A DNA stretch of 43,803 nt, taken from a virus. The stretch spans positions 1 to 43,803 of IMG/VR virus record IMGVR_UViG_3300010885_001577; one strand, given 5' to 3'. This document shows positions 3,852-23,671 of the stretch, piece by piece; position 1 is the stretch's first letter; every line of letters begins with the position of its first letter. Under the pieces are notes generated by a model that saw only the letters and a list, made by a program, of their open reading frames with translations, searched no databases and was not told where the DNA came from. The position numbers were made by a program, and so were the translations under genes.

Positions 3852-4772
3852 TTAGGGGCCGTTAACGCCCCACACAGCGCGAGGATCAGACCAGCCGAAC
3901 GAATAACGCTCGTAGCCTTTAGCCTTAGCATTCATGGTATCAAAATCATTGTCTTGATCAAACATGATAGCGTGACGCTCGTAGTACTTCATACCAGTAC
4001 CACCGGGAATGGTGTTACGGATAAACCAAGCGTGAGGGCTTGAGAAGTAGTGGTTCACCTTGAAGCCACCGGGCAGGTAGTTGCCAGACTTGATGACGTT
4101 GATGTCATTGTTGGCATTACCAGTTTGGTAGCTAGAGTGCAGAATACGTTGAGCATTAAACACTTCTTGGCGAGCAATGTGCAAGTCTTTAGGTTGGATA
4201 GCAACCAGCAAACCACGGTCGTTTTGCAGACCCATGATTGCAATCATTGCATCTTCCAAAGCAGCTTCGGACAAATCCACATCTACAGCAGGCTTGTTAG
4301 ACCAAGTACCACCAGTGGTATTTGGGTGATCCGTTGCACACAAAGCTTTACCATCACCACCAGTGTACGAGCTATTGAAAGCACGGTTGTACACGTTAGC
4401 AGCAACGTTTTCTTTGGTTTGACGGAAAGACATAGCCAAAGCAGCAGCACGCTTCTTGGAGATCTGTTCGTACAGGTTGTCGTCCATTTCTTCTTTAGTC
4501 ACGATATAGCCCATTGCGTATGCAACGTGCGTATAGCGAGTAACGAAGCCTTGAACTTCAGAGTCGTACTGAACGCCAGAGCCTTGCGACTTGACAGGCA
4601 CCAAACCAAAACCAGTCAACTGAACATCTTCTTCGTAGTTTTGAGTGGAAGTGTCTTTGTCAAACAGATCCACATACTCTTCAGGATGCTCGTTGTAGGT
4701 TTGTCCCCACCAAGCTTTAATGCCGGGCCATAGGGCCTTGGGGTGCGAACTAGTAGTGATAATTCCAGCCAT
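3852..4772 (-). CDS. Major capsid protein
   Basis: The 306-residue protein lies where a major capsid gene is expected: after the scaffold and head proteins and followed by a strong terminator. The sequence (VTRYTHVAYAMGYIVTKEEMDD near residues 75-100; LLVAIQPKDLHIARQEVF near 190; PGGFKVNHYF and FDTMNAKAKGYERYSFGWSDPRAVWG at the C-terminus) matches capsid proteins of environmental podoviruses that adopt the HK97 fold. The start is ATG 4772 behind AGGAG. There is no visible N-terminal cleavage motif. HK97 fold is inferred from family resemblance. Confidence 0.85.
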   Translation of the reverse strand: MAGIITTSSHPKALWPGIKAWWGQTYNEHPEEYVDLFDKDTSTQNYEEDVQLTGFGLVPVKSQGSGVQYDSEVQGFVTRYTHVAYAMGYIVTKEEMDDNLYEQISKKRAAALAMSFRQTKENVAANVYNRAFNSSYTGGDGKALCATDHPNTTGGTWSNKPAVDVDLSEAALEDAMIAIMGLQNDRGLLVAIQPKDLHIARQEVFNAQRILHSSYQTGNANNDINVIKSGNYLPGGFKVNHYFSSPHAWFIRNTIPGGTGMKYYERHAIMFDQDNDFDTMNAKAKGYERYSFGWSDPRAVWGVNGP

Positions 4773-14836: not shown

Positions 14837-15286
14837 ATGACTACCTCTGTCTTAGCGACTTTGTATGCAGCAGCAACTGAGAGCTTAGTCTCAGATGCGT
14901 CTGCTACGAGTACTTTTGAAAAGATGATTGCGGAAGCATTCACTCACGGAACTGTAGAGACTTTCACTAGAGACTTGATTGAGACTGAAAAACAGATCAA
15001 GAAAGAATTTGAAGTCAAGTCTATGCCCGGGCCTTGGAGGTCTGGTAAATCTGTGTTGTTGTCTGCTATGAAGCTAAACATCAAGCTTGTAGACACCAAT
15101 GGGAACTACTATGGCAAAACAGCTTTGCAAAACAAAATCAAGGCAATGAAACTGGAGACTAAAGATCCTGTTACCAGCATTGAATATGCTGACAAGATCA
15201 TCAAGCTTCTGATGAACACACCTGCTGAATTGGATGTAGGTTTGGTTTACCAAGCTGTTTCTGATTTTATTAAACATGCTGACTAA
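14837..15286 (+). CDS. Hypothetical protein upstream of the VWA/AAA+ pair (149 aa)
   Basis: The 149-residue product is helical, with a basic central region (SMPGPWRSGKSVLLSAMKL near residues 63-81). GPWRSGKS superficially resembles a P-loop but lacks the GxxxxGK[ST] spacing and a Walker B, so I do not call it an ATPase. It overlaps the CobT-like gene by 11 nt and is probably cotranslated with the VWA/AAA+ pair, possibly as its partner or substrate adaptor. Confidence 0.6.
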   Translation: MTTSVLATLYAAATESLVSDASATSTFEKMIAEAFTHGTVETFTRDLIETEKQIKKEFEVKSMPGPWRSGKSVLLSAMKLNIKLVDTNGNYYGKTALQNKIKAMKLETKDPVTSIEYADKIIKLLMNTPAELDVGLVYQAVSDFIKHAD

Positions 15287-17081
15287 AGCTATTGAAGTCA
15301 CAAAGTACATACGCGCCAGTGCAGGAAGGGCTGGCTTATCAGTACAGTTTGAGGACACTAATCAACCAAGGCACGACGGTAACACTATCTTCTTGCCAAA
15401 GATTACTATCTCAACTACTGAAAAACAACTCAAAGAGTTAATGACTTCGGTAGACCATGAGGTCGCACACGAACGTTTTAGCTCTTTTGATTTGTTGAAA
15501 GAGAAAAAACTTGATCCTTCTAGCGCACTGATGTTTGTGTGGAACTTCTTAGAAGACTCCCGCATTAACGCCATAGAAGCTAGAGAGTATCTAGGATTCC
15601 GATATAACTGGGATGAAACTTCATCTGGGATCATCAAGGCAATCTTAGAACGTAGCAACAAAATTGCAACGCCCACAGCGGCTCTAACGCGATCATTGCT
15701 GTGCTGGGAAGCTCCTATCACAGCACATCTCTTTCCGACGGTTGAGTCTGTCACTAGTCACTTTAAAGCAGATAAGAAAATCATAGATGTTCTTAATAAC
15801 TATTCTGATCGTCTTGTTGCTTGTCAGCAAGTTTTAGACAAACGACTTGGCACACAAGCTACTTATGACATAGCTTTGGACATTCTTAAAGATCTTGGCA
15901 TCAAGAACCCTGAAGAAATGCCGCCAGAAGCAAAAAGCAAAGCAGCTAAAAAGTCGTCTGAAACAGGTGAAGGCAAAACAGAAGAAACTACATCAACAGA
16001 AACAACTGATGATGAAGCTAATTCTGGAGAAGGTGAAAACAAAGAAAACAACGACGATGAATACAAAATTATTACGGTAAAACTTACCAAAGATGATTTG
16101 GACAAATTGTCGTTGACTATGCCTACAACTGGTAAGAAGATGGGCAAAGTTGGCATCAACCATGAACCAGTTGACTTGCACAGCATGGACAAGTGGGACA
16201 TGACAGACTATGAAAAATTCACTGTTGTTAACTACCCTAAAAATATTGGTAATGCTCATTACTTTAGAGAAACACCTGACTCGCGGGAGTTTGTGCGTCA
16301 GTACAACATTCGTGTAGGAGAAAACTTAGTTTCTCAAGAAAACTTTGCACAACAGGTACGTAGACTGATTCAAATCAGAGCTAGAGTTCAAACTCAATAC
16401 GGCACAAAGAAAGGCAAGCTAGATCAATCTAGGTTGTCTCGTATTTGTTTTAATGCACCCGGCTTTAACGAGCGTGTGTTCAAAACTCGTATTGAGAACA
16501 AAACTCTAGATGCTGCCATTTCAATTTTGGTTGACATGTCAGGCTCTATGAGTGGGTCTAAAGCGTATTACGCTCTTGCTTCTGCTTTGTTGATGAACGA
16601 AGTGTGTACTACGTTGCGTATCCCAGTTGAGATCGTTGGTTTTACTGACGAAAACATTAGTAGTGGTGGTGCATTACCAGTCATGTTTGTCTACAAAGCT
16701 TTTTCTGATTTGCATGTTAGCAATGATGTGTTGTTAGAAAACTTTGCAAAAAGCAGCAATTTCATGTGTGGCAATCCTGACGGTGAAAACATTCTGTGGG
16801 CTTACGAACGATTGCTTAAACGCAAAGAACGTAAACGTGTATTTGTTGTCATGTCTGACGGTGAACCAGCAGCATCTAAATCTTCTTATGGTCTAGAAGC
16901 TTTTACAAAGCGTGTGATCAAAGAAATCGAACAAGCCAAAAAAGTAGACATTTATGGTCTTGGCTTACAAAGCAACAGCGTTAAACACTACTACTCAGCA
17001 CATGACGTAGTAGATAAACCTGAGCAGATTCCGAGTAAGTTGTTATCCCTAATAGAAAAGAAAGTGATTGGATATGTCTAG
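15276..17081 (+). CDS. CobT-like VWA-domain protein with HEXXH motif
   Basis: The 601-residue protein has three parts. The N-terminal region contains DHEVAHERF (about residue 60), an HEXXH zinc-protease-like signature. A low-complexity acidic/Thr/Lys linker covers about residues 215-270. The C-terminal von Willebrand A domain has a MIDAS motif DMSGSMSGS near residue 420 and VVMSDGEP near 525. VWA proteins of this kind (CobT, and partners of MoxR ATPases) act with an AAA+ ring, which is encoded immediately downstream. It probably docks a metal-binding substrate onto the ATPase. The substrate is unknown; cobalt insertion is not implied because no corrin genes are present. Confidence 0.75.
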   Translation: MLTKAIEVTKYIRASAGRAGLSVQFEDTNQPRHDGNTIFLPKITISTTEKQLKELMTSVDHEVAHERFSSFDLLKEKKLDPSSALMFVWNFLEDSRINAIEAREYLGFRYNWDETSSGIIKAILERSNKIATPTAALTRSLLCWEAPITAHLFPTVESVTSHFKADKKIIDVLNNYSDRLVACQQVLDKRLGTQATYDIALDILKDLGIKNPEEMPPEAKSKAAKKSSETGEGKTEETTSTETTDDEANSGEGENKENNDDEYKIITVKLTKDDLDKLSLTMPTTGKKMGKVGINHEPVDLHSMDKWDMTDYEKFTVVNYPKNIGNAHYFRETPDSREFVRQYNIRVGENLVSQENFAQQVRRLIQIRARVQTQYGTKKGKLDQSRLSRICFNAPGFNERVFKTRIENKTLDAAISILVDMSGSMSGSKAYYALASALLMNEVCTTLRIPVEIVGFTDENISSGGALPVMFVYKAFSDLHVSNDVLLENFAKSSNFMCGNPDGENILWAYERLLKRKERKRVFVVMSDGEPAASKSSYGLEAFTKRVIKEIEQAKKVDIYGLGLQSNSVKHYYSAHDVVDKPEQIPSKLLSLIEKKVIGYV

Positions 17082-18216
17082 TACTGACAAAGTGGAGCAT
17101 CTTGTGAAAGAAGCACTTAAAGAAGCAATGGAGAAACGTAAATTGTCTACTACAGCGGTTCCTCCTGTAAAACCACCTGACCTCCTTATGGACATGCTTG
17201 GTAAAGAAGAAATGGTAAAGCCAATTACAGTAAGCAGTGATGCTCCCAAAGGCATTGTGTTAAAAGCAAATCAACAGTTGTTTTCAACTGTTACTAGTAC
17301 CACGGGCATGGATTGGAACTCAGACTTTCCAGTCACAGTGTTTGACAAATATGAGTGGGATGAACGTATTGCCTTGTTTATTCCAGAAGTTGATCCTGAG
17401 TATGTCATTGACACGGATCTGGCTATGAGCATCTTGCGTGCTTGGGAAATGAACGAAAAGGTACTTTGCTACGGCCCAACAGGTGCTGGCAAATCATCGT
17501 TGATTGAACAGTTGTGCGCTCGTACTTCTCGTCCTTTTGTCCGTATTAACTGCACAGGTGACATGGACTCGTCAATGATCTTTGGTCAACTGACTGCCAA
17601 AGATGGTTCTACACAATGGGTAGACGGTGCTGTTACCGAAGCTGTACGCTACGGTGCTGTGTTTGCTTGGGACGAATGGGACGTAACACCTCCCGAAATC
17701 TCAATGGGTTTGCAATGGCTCTTAGAAGACAACGGCAAGCTCTTTCTCAAAGAGATGCCGGGTAACACCAAAGATCGTCAGATCATTCCACACGAACACT
17801 TCAAACTTGTGGCTATCGGCAACACACAGGGTCAAGGCGACGATACAGGTTCACATGCAGGTACAAACGTACAAAACTCTGCTACGCTAGATCGCTTTGG
17901 TACTGCTGTATACATTGGGTATCTAGCACCTGAAGTAGAAGAAAAGATGATTCAAAACAAATGGTCATCAGTTATTACCAAGAAAGCAACCAAAGAGCTT
18001 GTTAAACTTGCTAATTTGGTTCGCCAAGGTTATACCAGTGGTCAGTTGAATTTGACTCTCTCACCTCGTTCATTGTTTAGCATCTGCAAAAAGCTTTCGT
18101 ATGGTTCATCTCTTACAAAAGCTTATCAGCTTGTGTATCTCAACAAGCTGAACGACACACAACGTAAAGTTGCAAACGAACTGTTTGTAAAAGTTTACGG
18201 CACATCTCACATCTAA
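17074..18216 (+). CDS. CobS/MoxR-like AAA+ ATPase
   Basis: The 380-residue protein has Walker A GPTGAGKSS (about residues 134-142) and Walker B VFAWDEWD (about 196-203), followed by a sensor-like VAIGNTQGQGDD region and a DRFG arginine-finger-like segment (about 270-273). This order matches the CobS/MoxR branch of AAA+ proteins. The start is ATG 17074, overlapping the VWA gene by 8 nt; TTG 17068 is possible. Cyanophages also carry cobS-like genes, but here the VWA partner is encoded directly upstream. It probably remodels a protein complex during infection. Confidence 0.8.
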   Translation: MSSTDKVEHLVKEALKEAMEKRKLSTTAVPPVKPPDLLMDMLGKEEMVKPITVSSDAPKGIVLKANQQLFSTVTSTTGMDWNSDFPVTVFDKYEWDERIALFIPEVDPEYVIDTDLAMSILRAWEMNEKVLCYGPTGAGKSSLIEQLCARTSRPFVRINCTGDMDSSMIFGQLTAKDGSTQWVDGAVTEAVRYGAVFAWDEWDVTPPEISMGLQWLLEDNGKLFLKEMPGNTKDRQIIPHEHFKLVAIGNTQGQGDDTGSHAGTNVQNSATLDRFGTAVYIGYLAPEVEEKMIQNKWSSVITKKATKELVKLANLVRQGYTSGQLNLTLSPRSLFSICKKLSYGSSLTKAYQLVYLNKLNDTQRKVANELFVKVYGTSHI

Positions 18217-22281: not shown

Positions 22282-22809
22282 ATGACGATGATGTCTGGCG
22301 TTGTGGAAGCCGTATCCACTAAAGATGTAACTACTAAATTTGGCACTAAGCCAACCTACTCGTTTAAAGTAAACGGTACTTGGATTAAGTGCGGTTTCAA
22401 AAATCCTAACGTTGACGTTGGTTACACTGTTGACTTTGATGGTGTCACAGGTACGTATGGTGTAGAGACTAAAGCAGTCAACATCACTAGCCGTTCACCA
22501 GCACCTGTAGCAGCTCCTGCTGTTACTAGTATTGCAGGTGCTAAACCTGCTTACAGCAGCTACAAAGAAAAAGTGTTTCCTATCCCAGCTTTGCATGGTG
22601 ATCGTGCAATTATTCGTCAAAACGCACTAGCTCGTGCTACTGACTTGTACATTGCAGCTCGTGGTGCTAAGCCGTTTGACTTGGACAAAAGCAATCTTAG
22701 TTTGATTATTGAGTTTGCTCGTACCTTTGAGGCGTATACAGCAGGTGATTTAGACATGGCAGAAGCTATGAATGAAGCTGGTGCTGAAAACGAAGCAAAC
22801 TTGTTCTAA
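22282..22809 (+). CDS. Single-stranded DNA-binding protein-like (OB-fold, acidic C-terminal tail)
   Basis: The 175-residue product starts with a beta-rich region (GVVEAVSTKDVTTKFG, YSFKVNGTWIKCGF, VGYTVDFDGVTG; residues 5-60) compatible with an OB fold. A linker rich in Ala/Pro and a helical C-terminal half follow. It ends in an acidic tail finishing ENEANLF. A terminal Phe after acidic residues is the hallmark of the partner-binding tails of SSB and T7 gp2.5. It directly follows the polymerase. The function is inferred from these features and context. In-frame ATGs at 22288 and 22291 are alternative starts. Confidence 0.6.
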   Translation: MTMMSGVVEAVSTKDVTTKFGTKPTYSFKVNGTWIKCGFKNPNVDVGYTVDFDGVTGTYGVETKAVNITSRSPAPVAAPAVTSIAGAKPAYSSYKEKVFPIPALHGDRAIIRQNALARATDLYIAARGAKPFDLDKSNLSLIIEFARTFEAYTAGDLDMAEAMNEAGAENEANLF

Positions 22810-22817
22810 AATGTTTT

Positions 22818-22907
22818 GGGGGCTGTTAAGCCAGCAATCGAGGATGTCAACGTAGGAAGTTTTCTGGCTTTCTGTCCTACCTAGTTGAAGACCAAATCGA
22901 AGCCCCC
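22818..22907 (+). ncRNA. Candidate pseudoknotted structured RNA
   Basis: Three mutually consistent helices can be drawn. P1 is GGGGGCT (22818-22824) with AGCCCCC (22901-22907). P2 is TCAACGTAGGA (22847-22857) with TCCTAC (22875-22880) and GTTGA (22884-22888), broken by a 3-nt bulge. P3 is AAGCCAG (22828-22834) with CTGGCTT (22864-22870), the latter inside the P2 hairpin loop, making an H-type pseudoknot. It lies between the SSB-like gene and the exonuclease, whose ATG is 18 nt beyond P1 and has only a weak ribosome site. It may be a riboswitch-like or translation-control element. I do not recognise a known class. Confidence 0.5.
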
Positions 22908-22924
22908 TCTTTTAAAGATAACAA

Positions 22925-23671
22925 ATGAAAGCACTTATAGATGGCGACATTGTGGTTTATAGAGCCGCAGCGTCAGCAGAAGATGCAGAGCAATGGGTAG
23001 CCCTAGCTAGAGCAGACAAGCTTATGCAGGACATCCTAGAAGACACACAAGCAGACAGCTACAGTGTGTACCTCACAGGAGCAGGTAACTTTCGTAGAGA
23101 AATAGCACCTAGCTACAAAGCACACCGACCTGAATCTAGACCACAACACTGGCAAGCAGTCCGAGAGTTCCTAATAACACAACACAAAGCAGTGATGTGT
23201 GATGGGTTTGAAGCTGATGACCAGTTAGGCATAGAACAAGACAAACATGGTGGCTCTACAGTGATTTGTTCTATCGACAAAGATCTACTCCAGATCCCGG
23301 GCAAGCACTACAACTTTGTTAAGAAAATCTTTCGAACTGTTACACACGATGAAGGCATTAGGTTTTTGTACATGCAAAGTCTTATTGGAGATCGCAGTGA
23401 CAACATCATTGGTGTTCAGGGCTTAGGCCCCGTTAAAGCGGATAACGCTTTAAAAGGACTGCTTCCAGAAGAGTACTACGACAAGTGCAGAGCACTGTAC
23501 GATGACGACAAACGGTTCCACCTCAACATGCAATTGCTTTACATCTGGCAGAAGCCTAACGATATGTGGCAACCGCCAACAGCTCCGCGAAGCGGAGATC
23601 CCACAACACCCGGGTTGTTCCCCACGGAACAACACGGCAACACAACCACAAAACAGGAAGCGGCAACATGA
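22925..23671 (+). CDS. 5'-3' exonuclease (FEN/T7 gp6-like)
   Basis: The 248-residue protein has the PIN-like nuclease core: ALIDGDIVVYRAA (residues 3-15), CDGFEADDQLGIEQ (about 97-110) and ICSIDKDLLQIPG (about 118-130). The helix-three-turn-helix follows, GDRSDNIIGVQGLGPVKADNAL (in two parts, about 158-179). It would remove RNA primers and degrade host DNA. After about residue 215 the sequence becomes Pro/Thr/Gly-rich (QPPTAPRSGDPTTPG...), exactly where GC-rich hairpin island 3 lies, so the native C-terminus has probably been extended by that insertion. It overlaps the next gene by ATGA. Confidence 0.8.
   Translation: MKALIDGDIVVYRAAASAEDAEQWVALARADKLMQDILEDTQADSYSVYLTGAGNFRREIAPSYKAHRPESRPQHWQAVREFLITQHKAVMCDGFEADDQLGIEQDKHGGSTVICSIDKDLLQIPGKHYNFVKKIFRTVTHDEGIRFLYMQSLIGDRSDNIIGVQGLGPVKADNALKGLLPEEYYDKCRALYDDDKRFHLNMQLLYIWQKPNDMWQPPTAPRSGDPTTPGLFPTEQHGNTTTKQEAAT
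23583..23633. repeat. GC-rich hairpin island 3, inside the exonuclease C-terminus
   Basis: Two perfect hairpins sit inside coding sequence: CTCCGC-GAA-GCGGAG (23583-23597) and GTTGTTCC-CCAC-GGAACAAC (23614-23633). A further ACAAC/GTTGT pairing overlaps the second. The GC-rich composition and the 3-nt loop of the first recall islands 1 and 2. The reading frame is kept open through it. Confidence 0.65.

Follow-up and report, generated by a model that had tools for sequence, protein, structure and literature searches.

The leader pseudoknot of phage T4 gene 32 is a 5' autoregulatory element of a single gene, T4-type phages also carry PeSL cassettes, which combine early promoters with plain stem-loops and occur many times per genome, and the THF riboswitch is a long hairpin whose apical loop pairs back to an internal junction. 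The STAXI motif is a pseudoknot RNA that lies near genes for ssDNA-binding protein and other DNA-handling proteins (PMC2864571), ToxI is likewise a pseudoknot, and the AbiF RNA RCd22 is active both in cis and in trans (PMC12373285).

Here we describe a structured RNA of about 90 bases, located between two genes at positions 22818-22907 of IMGVR_UViG_3300010885_001577, a 43.8-kb record of an uncultured freshwater virus that was analysed over its whole length of 43,803 nucleotides (hereafter the window). Comparison shows that this RNA belongs to a large phage RNA family, whose members are about 90 nt long and share conserved unpaired GUUA, AGGAUG, UUUU, UC and CCAAAU. Few pseudoknotted phage RNAs of such spread are known.

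Results

The window and the predicted fold

The window encodes a family A DNA polymerase, a DnaB-like helicase, a Toprim protein, endonuclease I, and portal and head genes, and ARAGORN found no tRNA in it. Its genome is podovirus-like and carries tandem genes for a CobT-like VWA protein and an AAA ATPase at 15276-18213. The gene that follows the RNA is indeed the exonuclease proposed in the first-pass annotation, and among its best cultured relatives is that of Methylophilales phage MEP401, classified in Zobellviridae. In contrast, the label "SSB-like" given to the upstream gene could not be confirmed, since a Pfam search of this ORF returned no match and PHROGs gave phrog_18140 alone. The features of the locus are as follows, all on the plus strand.

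22282-22809, +: upstream ORF of 175 aa, in phrog_18140, a PHROGs family without assigned function; its stop codon lies 8 nt 5' of P1
22784-22789, +: weak -35-like CTGAAA; at a spacing of 17 nt, it and TAAAAT together match 9 of 12 positions
22807-22812, +: -10-like TAAAAT, which shares bases with the upstream ORF's stop codon and ends 5 nt short of P1
22818-22824, +: 5' arm of P1, GGGGGCU, 7 bp with 22901-22907; two-sided changes in 7/7 pairs
22825-22835, +: J1/2 loop with conserved G-UUA...C; the closing pair G22825-C22835 encloses the pseudoknot strand
22828-22834, +: 5' strand of the pseudoknot, AAGCCAG, 7 bp with 22864-22870
22838-22841, +: 5' strand of P2, UCGA, with 22897-22900; the two middle pairs covary
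22841-22846, +: conserved AGGAUG of the P2/P2b internal loop; invariant in both alignments, partly imposed by the search patterns
22846-22848, +: 5' strand of P2b, GUC, with 22890-22892; in 46 sequences, the pairing holds in 100% of cells
22849-22857, +: 5' strand of P3, lower AAC and upper GUAGGA; 6/6 upper pairs covary
22860-22863, +: UUUU abutting the 3' strand of the pseudoknot on its 5' side; fixed loop form UUUU-[7 nt]-UC
22864-22870, +: 3' strand of the pseudoknot, CUGGCUU, in the P3 loop, pairing with 22828-22834
22875-22886, +: 3' strand of P3, UCCUAC, a 3-nt bulge and GUU; the pairing segments are 22875-22880 and 22884-22886
22890-22892, +: 3' strand of P2b, GAC, pairing with 22846-22848
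22892-22897, +: conserved CCAAAU on the 3' strand of the internal loop between P2 and P2b; the patterns used in the search impose it in part
22897-22900, +: 3' strand of P2, UCGA, pairing with 22838-22841 and running straight into the 3' arm of P1
22901-22907, +: 3' arm of P1, AGCCCCC, pairing with 22818-22824
22908-22913, +: pyrimidine tail UCUUUU after P1; the family consensus is roughly ACCUUUU
22925-23671, +: downstream ORF of 248 aa, a 5'-3' exonuclease

The predicted architecture is, almost certainly, P1-P2-P2b-P3, in which the apical loop of P3 pairs with the P1/P2 junction through the 7-bp pseudoknot. All three helices named in the first-pass annotation, namely P1, the pseudoknot and P3, are present in the window. 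Its 11-bp stem stands only in part: the upper pairs (GUAGGA 22852-22857 with UCCUAC 22875-22880) covary, but the lowest two, U22847-A22888 and C22848-G22887, are not conserved, being unpaired in 18 and 9 of 46 aligned elements and lacking any two-sided change. The 5' bases of these two pairs form P2b instead, whose columns 34/78 read U-A in 28 and G-C in 18 of the 46 sequences. P2, which the annotation had lacked, also covaries, and the 4-bp alternative pairing that it had suggested as a switch is not conserved, with 58% of cells paired, no better than shuffles. In some relatives (loci L043 and L033), the 3-nt bulge of P3 is replaced by a further hairpin. The U-rich loop strands by the pseudoknot, together with the A-rich internal loop, hint at base triples, although this is speculation.

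Comparative evidence for the fold

Folding of the window sequence by itself proves nothing, since the nested fold alone (-29.7 kcal/mol, z = -1.1) was equalled by 30 of 200 shuffles; it was the comparative evidence that was decisive for the reality of the pseudoknot. A search of viral contigs with the two flanking proteins as queries yielded some 85 loci that differ in their intergenic sequence, just over half of which hold the same RNA. A DNA pattern for the 5' core, together with a second pattern that forbade the pseudoknot strand of the window, afforded at least 201 elements after removal of false matches. Since the patterns partly fixed GUUA, AGGAUG and CCnAAU, and the element set was filtered for P1 and UUUU, the conservation of GUUA, AGGAUG, CCnAAU and UUUU is partly imposed, whereas the selection placed no condition on the pseudoknot pairing, on P2b or on P3. 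Among the matches listed, 200 of 201 elements form all seven pseudoknot pairs, with 18 different 7-nt strands, and mismatched combinations of strands between elements give full 7/7 pairing in only 9%. Two-sided changes occur in all P1 and upper P3 pairs and in most P2/P2b pairs of a gap-free alignment of 46 diverse elements. When other pseudoknot variants were included (64 elements), 96.1% of pair cells held, and two-sided changes appeared in 25 of 29 pairs, among them all but one of the 7 pseudoknot pairs. As controls, slid structures paired in 32-46% of cells, with covariation scores of 0.09-0.13 as against 0.76 for the unshifted structure, and none of 500 shuffles reached the observed pairing or covariation values. 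Thus, the covariation in related phages by which the first-pass annotation had proposed to judge its stems is present, and the loop-to-junction pseudoknot of H-type order, closed by the outer stem, is kept by compensatory change.

Outside the pseudoknot, the inner six pairs of P1 are conserved at 99-100% in 173 elements, the seventh at 75% and the eighth at 40%. The closing pair G22825-C22835 is GC in 63 and AU in one of the 64 aligned sequences, and the UUA of the J1/2 loop is invariant, as the search patterns partly impose. The apical loop has the form UUUU-[7 nt]-UC in 198 of 201 elements among the matches listed, UUUU being itself a selection condition.

These changes bear on the reading that the fold is chance complementarity, or a coding sequence with a pseudoknot for stop-codon read-through. 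The nested fold that is no better than shuffles is compatible with it, as is a spacing from stop codon to pseudoknot like that of read-through signals; however, the covariation already refutes it, and we regard its probability as negligible. As to read-through itself, the frame offsets after the stop codon differ among elements (77/39/36), and the most frequent frame runs open through the whole element in only 1 of 201 among the matches listed. Two other candidates were rejected. An integron attC site does not fit, for P1 reads GTT...AAC in one class and the order in attC is opposite; neither does a tRNA-like element with a 7-bp P1 and an NCC tail, for the CC is correctly placed in only 60 of 173 elements and the tail is mostly NCCT.

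Distribution and copy number

Nearly all copies of the element are in IMG/VR contigs, from uncultured, mostly lake, phages. Two bacterial MAG contigs, one of them from a Rhodoferax MAG, also carry it, and when 369 bacterial genomes from the same class as this MAG were searched, its contig alone matched. BLAST with five element variants against cultured phages, and with one against plasmids, returned short chance hits or none, and the element was absent from the exonuclease-region stretches of two cultured relatives, MEP401 and an Alcaligenes phage, and from that of an uncultured genome from Manatee Spring. Of 32 whole records searched with a first family model, 27 hold one copy with a convincing score and five hold none, the latter being close relatives of the window. 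A second model found one strong copy in each of 32 records, two of which were also in the first set. In all, 58 of 59 element-bearing records have a single copy and the remaining record has a weak second match, copy number being a lower bound because many records are fragments. Record G421, which already has one strong copy, gave a further weak hit with the family model (20 bits, E 0.001) at 1591-1665 on the minus strand.

Genomic neighbourhood and promoters

The element adjoins genes for exonuclease, PolA, Enc34-type ssDNA-binding protein, methyltransferase, portal, endolysin, the Sf6-type small subunit of terminase and the large terminase subunit, and in some phages it lies by the DNA polymerase gene, behind a 209-aa gene. 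It usually starts 3-9 nt past a stop codon, and in 152 of 183 elements a sense ORF ends no more than 45 nt upstream, with a mode of 5-6 nt. However, the element is antisense to both neighbours at L192/L202 and at L359/L364/L384/L388, and copies that lie at the 3' end of one endolysin family run in either direction (L478, L548), indicating that its orientation is not tied to one neighbour.

These placements bear on whether the element is a riboswitch or otherwise controls the downstream gene, the exonuclease in the window, in cis. In its favour, the start of the exonuclease gene lies about 17-18 nt past P1 with a weak ribosome site, as the first-pass annotation had noted. However, members of the family precede unrelated genes, some of which run in the opposite direction, and a consistent same-orientation downstream gene was looked for across the family and not found. 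Since the neighbours are unrelated and some elements are antisense to both, control of the exonuclease gene does not hold as a general role, and such a regulator is highly improbable.

Matches to a -10 box peak 5-6 nt before P1 (16 of 125, with 0-2 at other offsets), and a -10 hexamer stands 4-7 nt before P1 in 8 of 17 elements without a sense gene ending upstream versus 11 of 98 elsewhere (Fisher p = 0.0013). Another structured RNA precedes several of the other elements that lack an upstream ORF. The TAAAAT of the window, which overlaps a stop codon, may be a chance match. Most members of the window's own family have no convincing promoter, and among five loci scanned, a full sigma-70-like promoter that ends at the element is present in L155 alone. 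Over all elements pooled, no -10 or -35 signal was found; since the -10 signal is confined to a subset, a general promoter before all elements was rejected.

Plain terminators in the slot of the element

In the window's family, sisters without the element hold a plain intrinsic terminator in its slot, with a stem that resembles P1 of the relatives. Such pairs of terminator and element are L030/L036 versus L079/L033, L114 versus L008, and L049 versus L183; L030 reads AGGGGGCG-loop-CGCTCCCATTTTTTTT where L079, an adjacent tree tip, reads AGGGGGCT-[core]-AGCCCCCGCCTTTTT. On the tree of this family, the element must have been gained or lost about 10 times. Insertion into a terminator loop as a universal rule was rejected: it fits the window's family and fails at the endolysin slot.

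The sisters' terminators keep a cis role at the 3' end of the upstream gene as the main rival. P1 and its pyrimidine tail would then be the terminator of that gene or a hairpin that stabilises its end, while the pseudoknotted core in the loop of this hairpin would tune termination, processing or 3'-5' decay, and the module might possibly sense ribosomes at the stop codon, which lies 5-6 nt upstream. The terminators with similar stems are the best evidence for this role, and the sense ORFs that end just upstream of most elements and the UCUUUU after P1 in the window agree with it. However, UUUU lies within 16 nt past the first 6 bp of P1 in only 53 of 169 distinct elements, a terminator needs neither a conserved core nor a limit of one per genome, and the antisense placements and the elements' own -10 boxes are left unexplained. 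We consider this role unlikely, if still a serious competitor.

Other structured RNAs near the element

Further structured RNAs were seen around the element. An uncatalogued P1-closed RNA, type B (P1-GAAAGCGGATGCTG...CAGACGCAGCGAGTA-P1'-ACC), is present in L275, L279, L312, L317, L333, L335, L338 and L339 (about 2640-2780) and, probably as a variant, in L081; the loci L333 and L081 gave no match in Rfam. It occupies the intergenic slots of the pseudoknot RNA and sometimes stands in tandem before it (directly upstream in L233, L410 and L326). A type C RNA, AGGGGCTGAACAGGGTGAGGGACGTTATCTCCC.AGCCG.TAGTAAGCCCCGCC, fills the slot after the gene of about 209 aa in L276 and L307. A hairpin module, ACACGCATGGGGATTG...CAGTCCCCAGCCGTGTTGG, sits in long noncoding regions of L152, L163, L178, L204, L219, L182 and others, sometimes in two copies and often fused to the 5' side of P1 of the pseudoknot RNA, and the hairpins GGGTTAGCGCC and CACTGCTTTATGTG also recur there. 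Short hairpins containing GCAGTTGCC lie just upstream of the element in L024, L028, L046, L135, L142, L170, L232 and L240. In L219, the pseudoknot RNA is followed about 170 nt downstream by a Betaproteobacteria-1 RNA (RF02932, 91 bits), at 4146-4263 on the minus strand.

Discussion

Of the readings considered, we lean slightly towards a stand-alone phage RNA, normally one per genome. The comparisons established its structure, its spread, its usual single copy and its variable neighbourhood and orientation, and we infer that it would act in trans. The single copy, the unrelated neighbours, the antisense cases and the -10 boxes favour such an RNA over a riboswitch. It would be made either as a read-through product of the gene that stops just upstream, or from its own promoter with the first base of P1 as the start, and the conserved core would then bind a host or phage protein or a ribosome component, for example as a decoy or regulator. 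However, promoters are unconvincing in most of the window's family, and both the tight spacing to the stop codon and the plain terminators that replace the element in sisters fit a cis role at least equally.

A more specific and rather unlikely version of the stand-alone RNA would be a new class, catalytic or a decoy for a factor of host defence or translation, that many unrelated freshwater phages have in a single copy and that changes places at the ends of genes with at least two further types of structured RNA, likewise uncatalogued. A new self-cleaving ribozyme would share the arbitrary closing stem, the covarying helices, the pseudoknot, the conserved unpaired bases and the varied phage contexts, and this architecture and gene-independent spread resemble the way in which small ribozymes were found, with no Rfam class matching. 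However, the same architecture suits aptamers or protein-binding RNAs equally, and a ribozyme appears improbable. The strong conservation of the core across unrelated phages implies a common partner in the infected cell, and with a consensus and a covariance model at hand, this partner could be sought by pull-down or deletion.

Comparison with known systems

Searches of Rfam 15 at gathering and at permissive E-value thresholds gave no family match, only chance hits or none, in agreement with the earlier statement that no named class has this layout. The family is thus absent from Rfam; the 2017 list of 224 motifs lay outside the comparison, and a description outside Rfam is not fully excluded.

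Like the leader of T4 gene 32, the phage element is a phage pseudoknot linked to a DNA-replication gene, but the former is the 5' leader of one gene, while the latter follows the stop codons of many. With the PeSL cassettes it shares being a small intergenic cassette with stem-loops, shuffled among phage genomes; those are plain stem-loops in many copies, whereas the phage element has a pseudoknotted core and usually occurs once per genome. It also shares with the THF riboswitch the pairing of an apical loop to an internal junction, but differs in the junction strand, the sequence and the gene context, and has no Rfam match.

The STAXI, AbiF and ToxI RNAs are nearest in flavour, and the phage element belongs to none of these classes by the features compared. 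ToxI and other type III antitoxin RNAs and RCd22, which bind one protein, are structured RNAs of mobile elements like the phage element, but they are built of repeated 33-50-nt motifs beside a toxin gene, whereas the phage element is a single copy (PMC12373285). With one copy and no Rfam match, it does not group with the type III antitoxin or AbiF RNAs, and no partner toxin was found among the scanned neighbours, whose genes are for replication, packaging or lysis or are of unassigned function. As for STAXI, the phage element shows no tandem repeats and no match to the Rfam model. Both are pseudoknot RNAs adjoining DNA-handling genes; however, STAXI is a pseudoknot in two to three tandem repeats, while the phage element is single and larger, with four stacked helices (PMC2864571).
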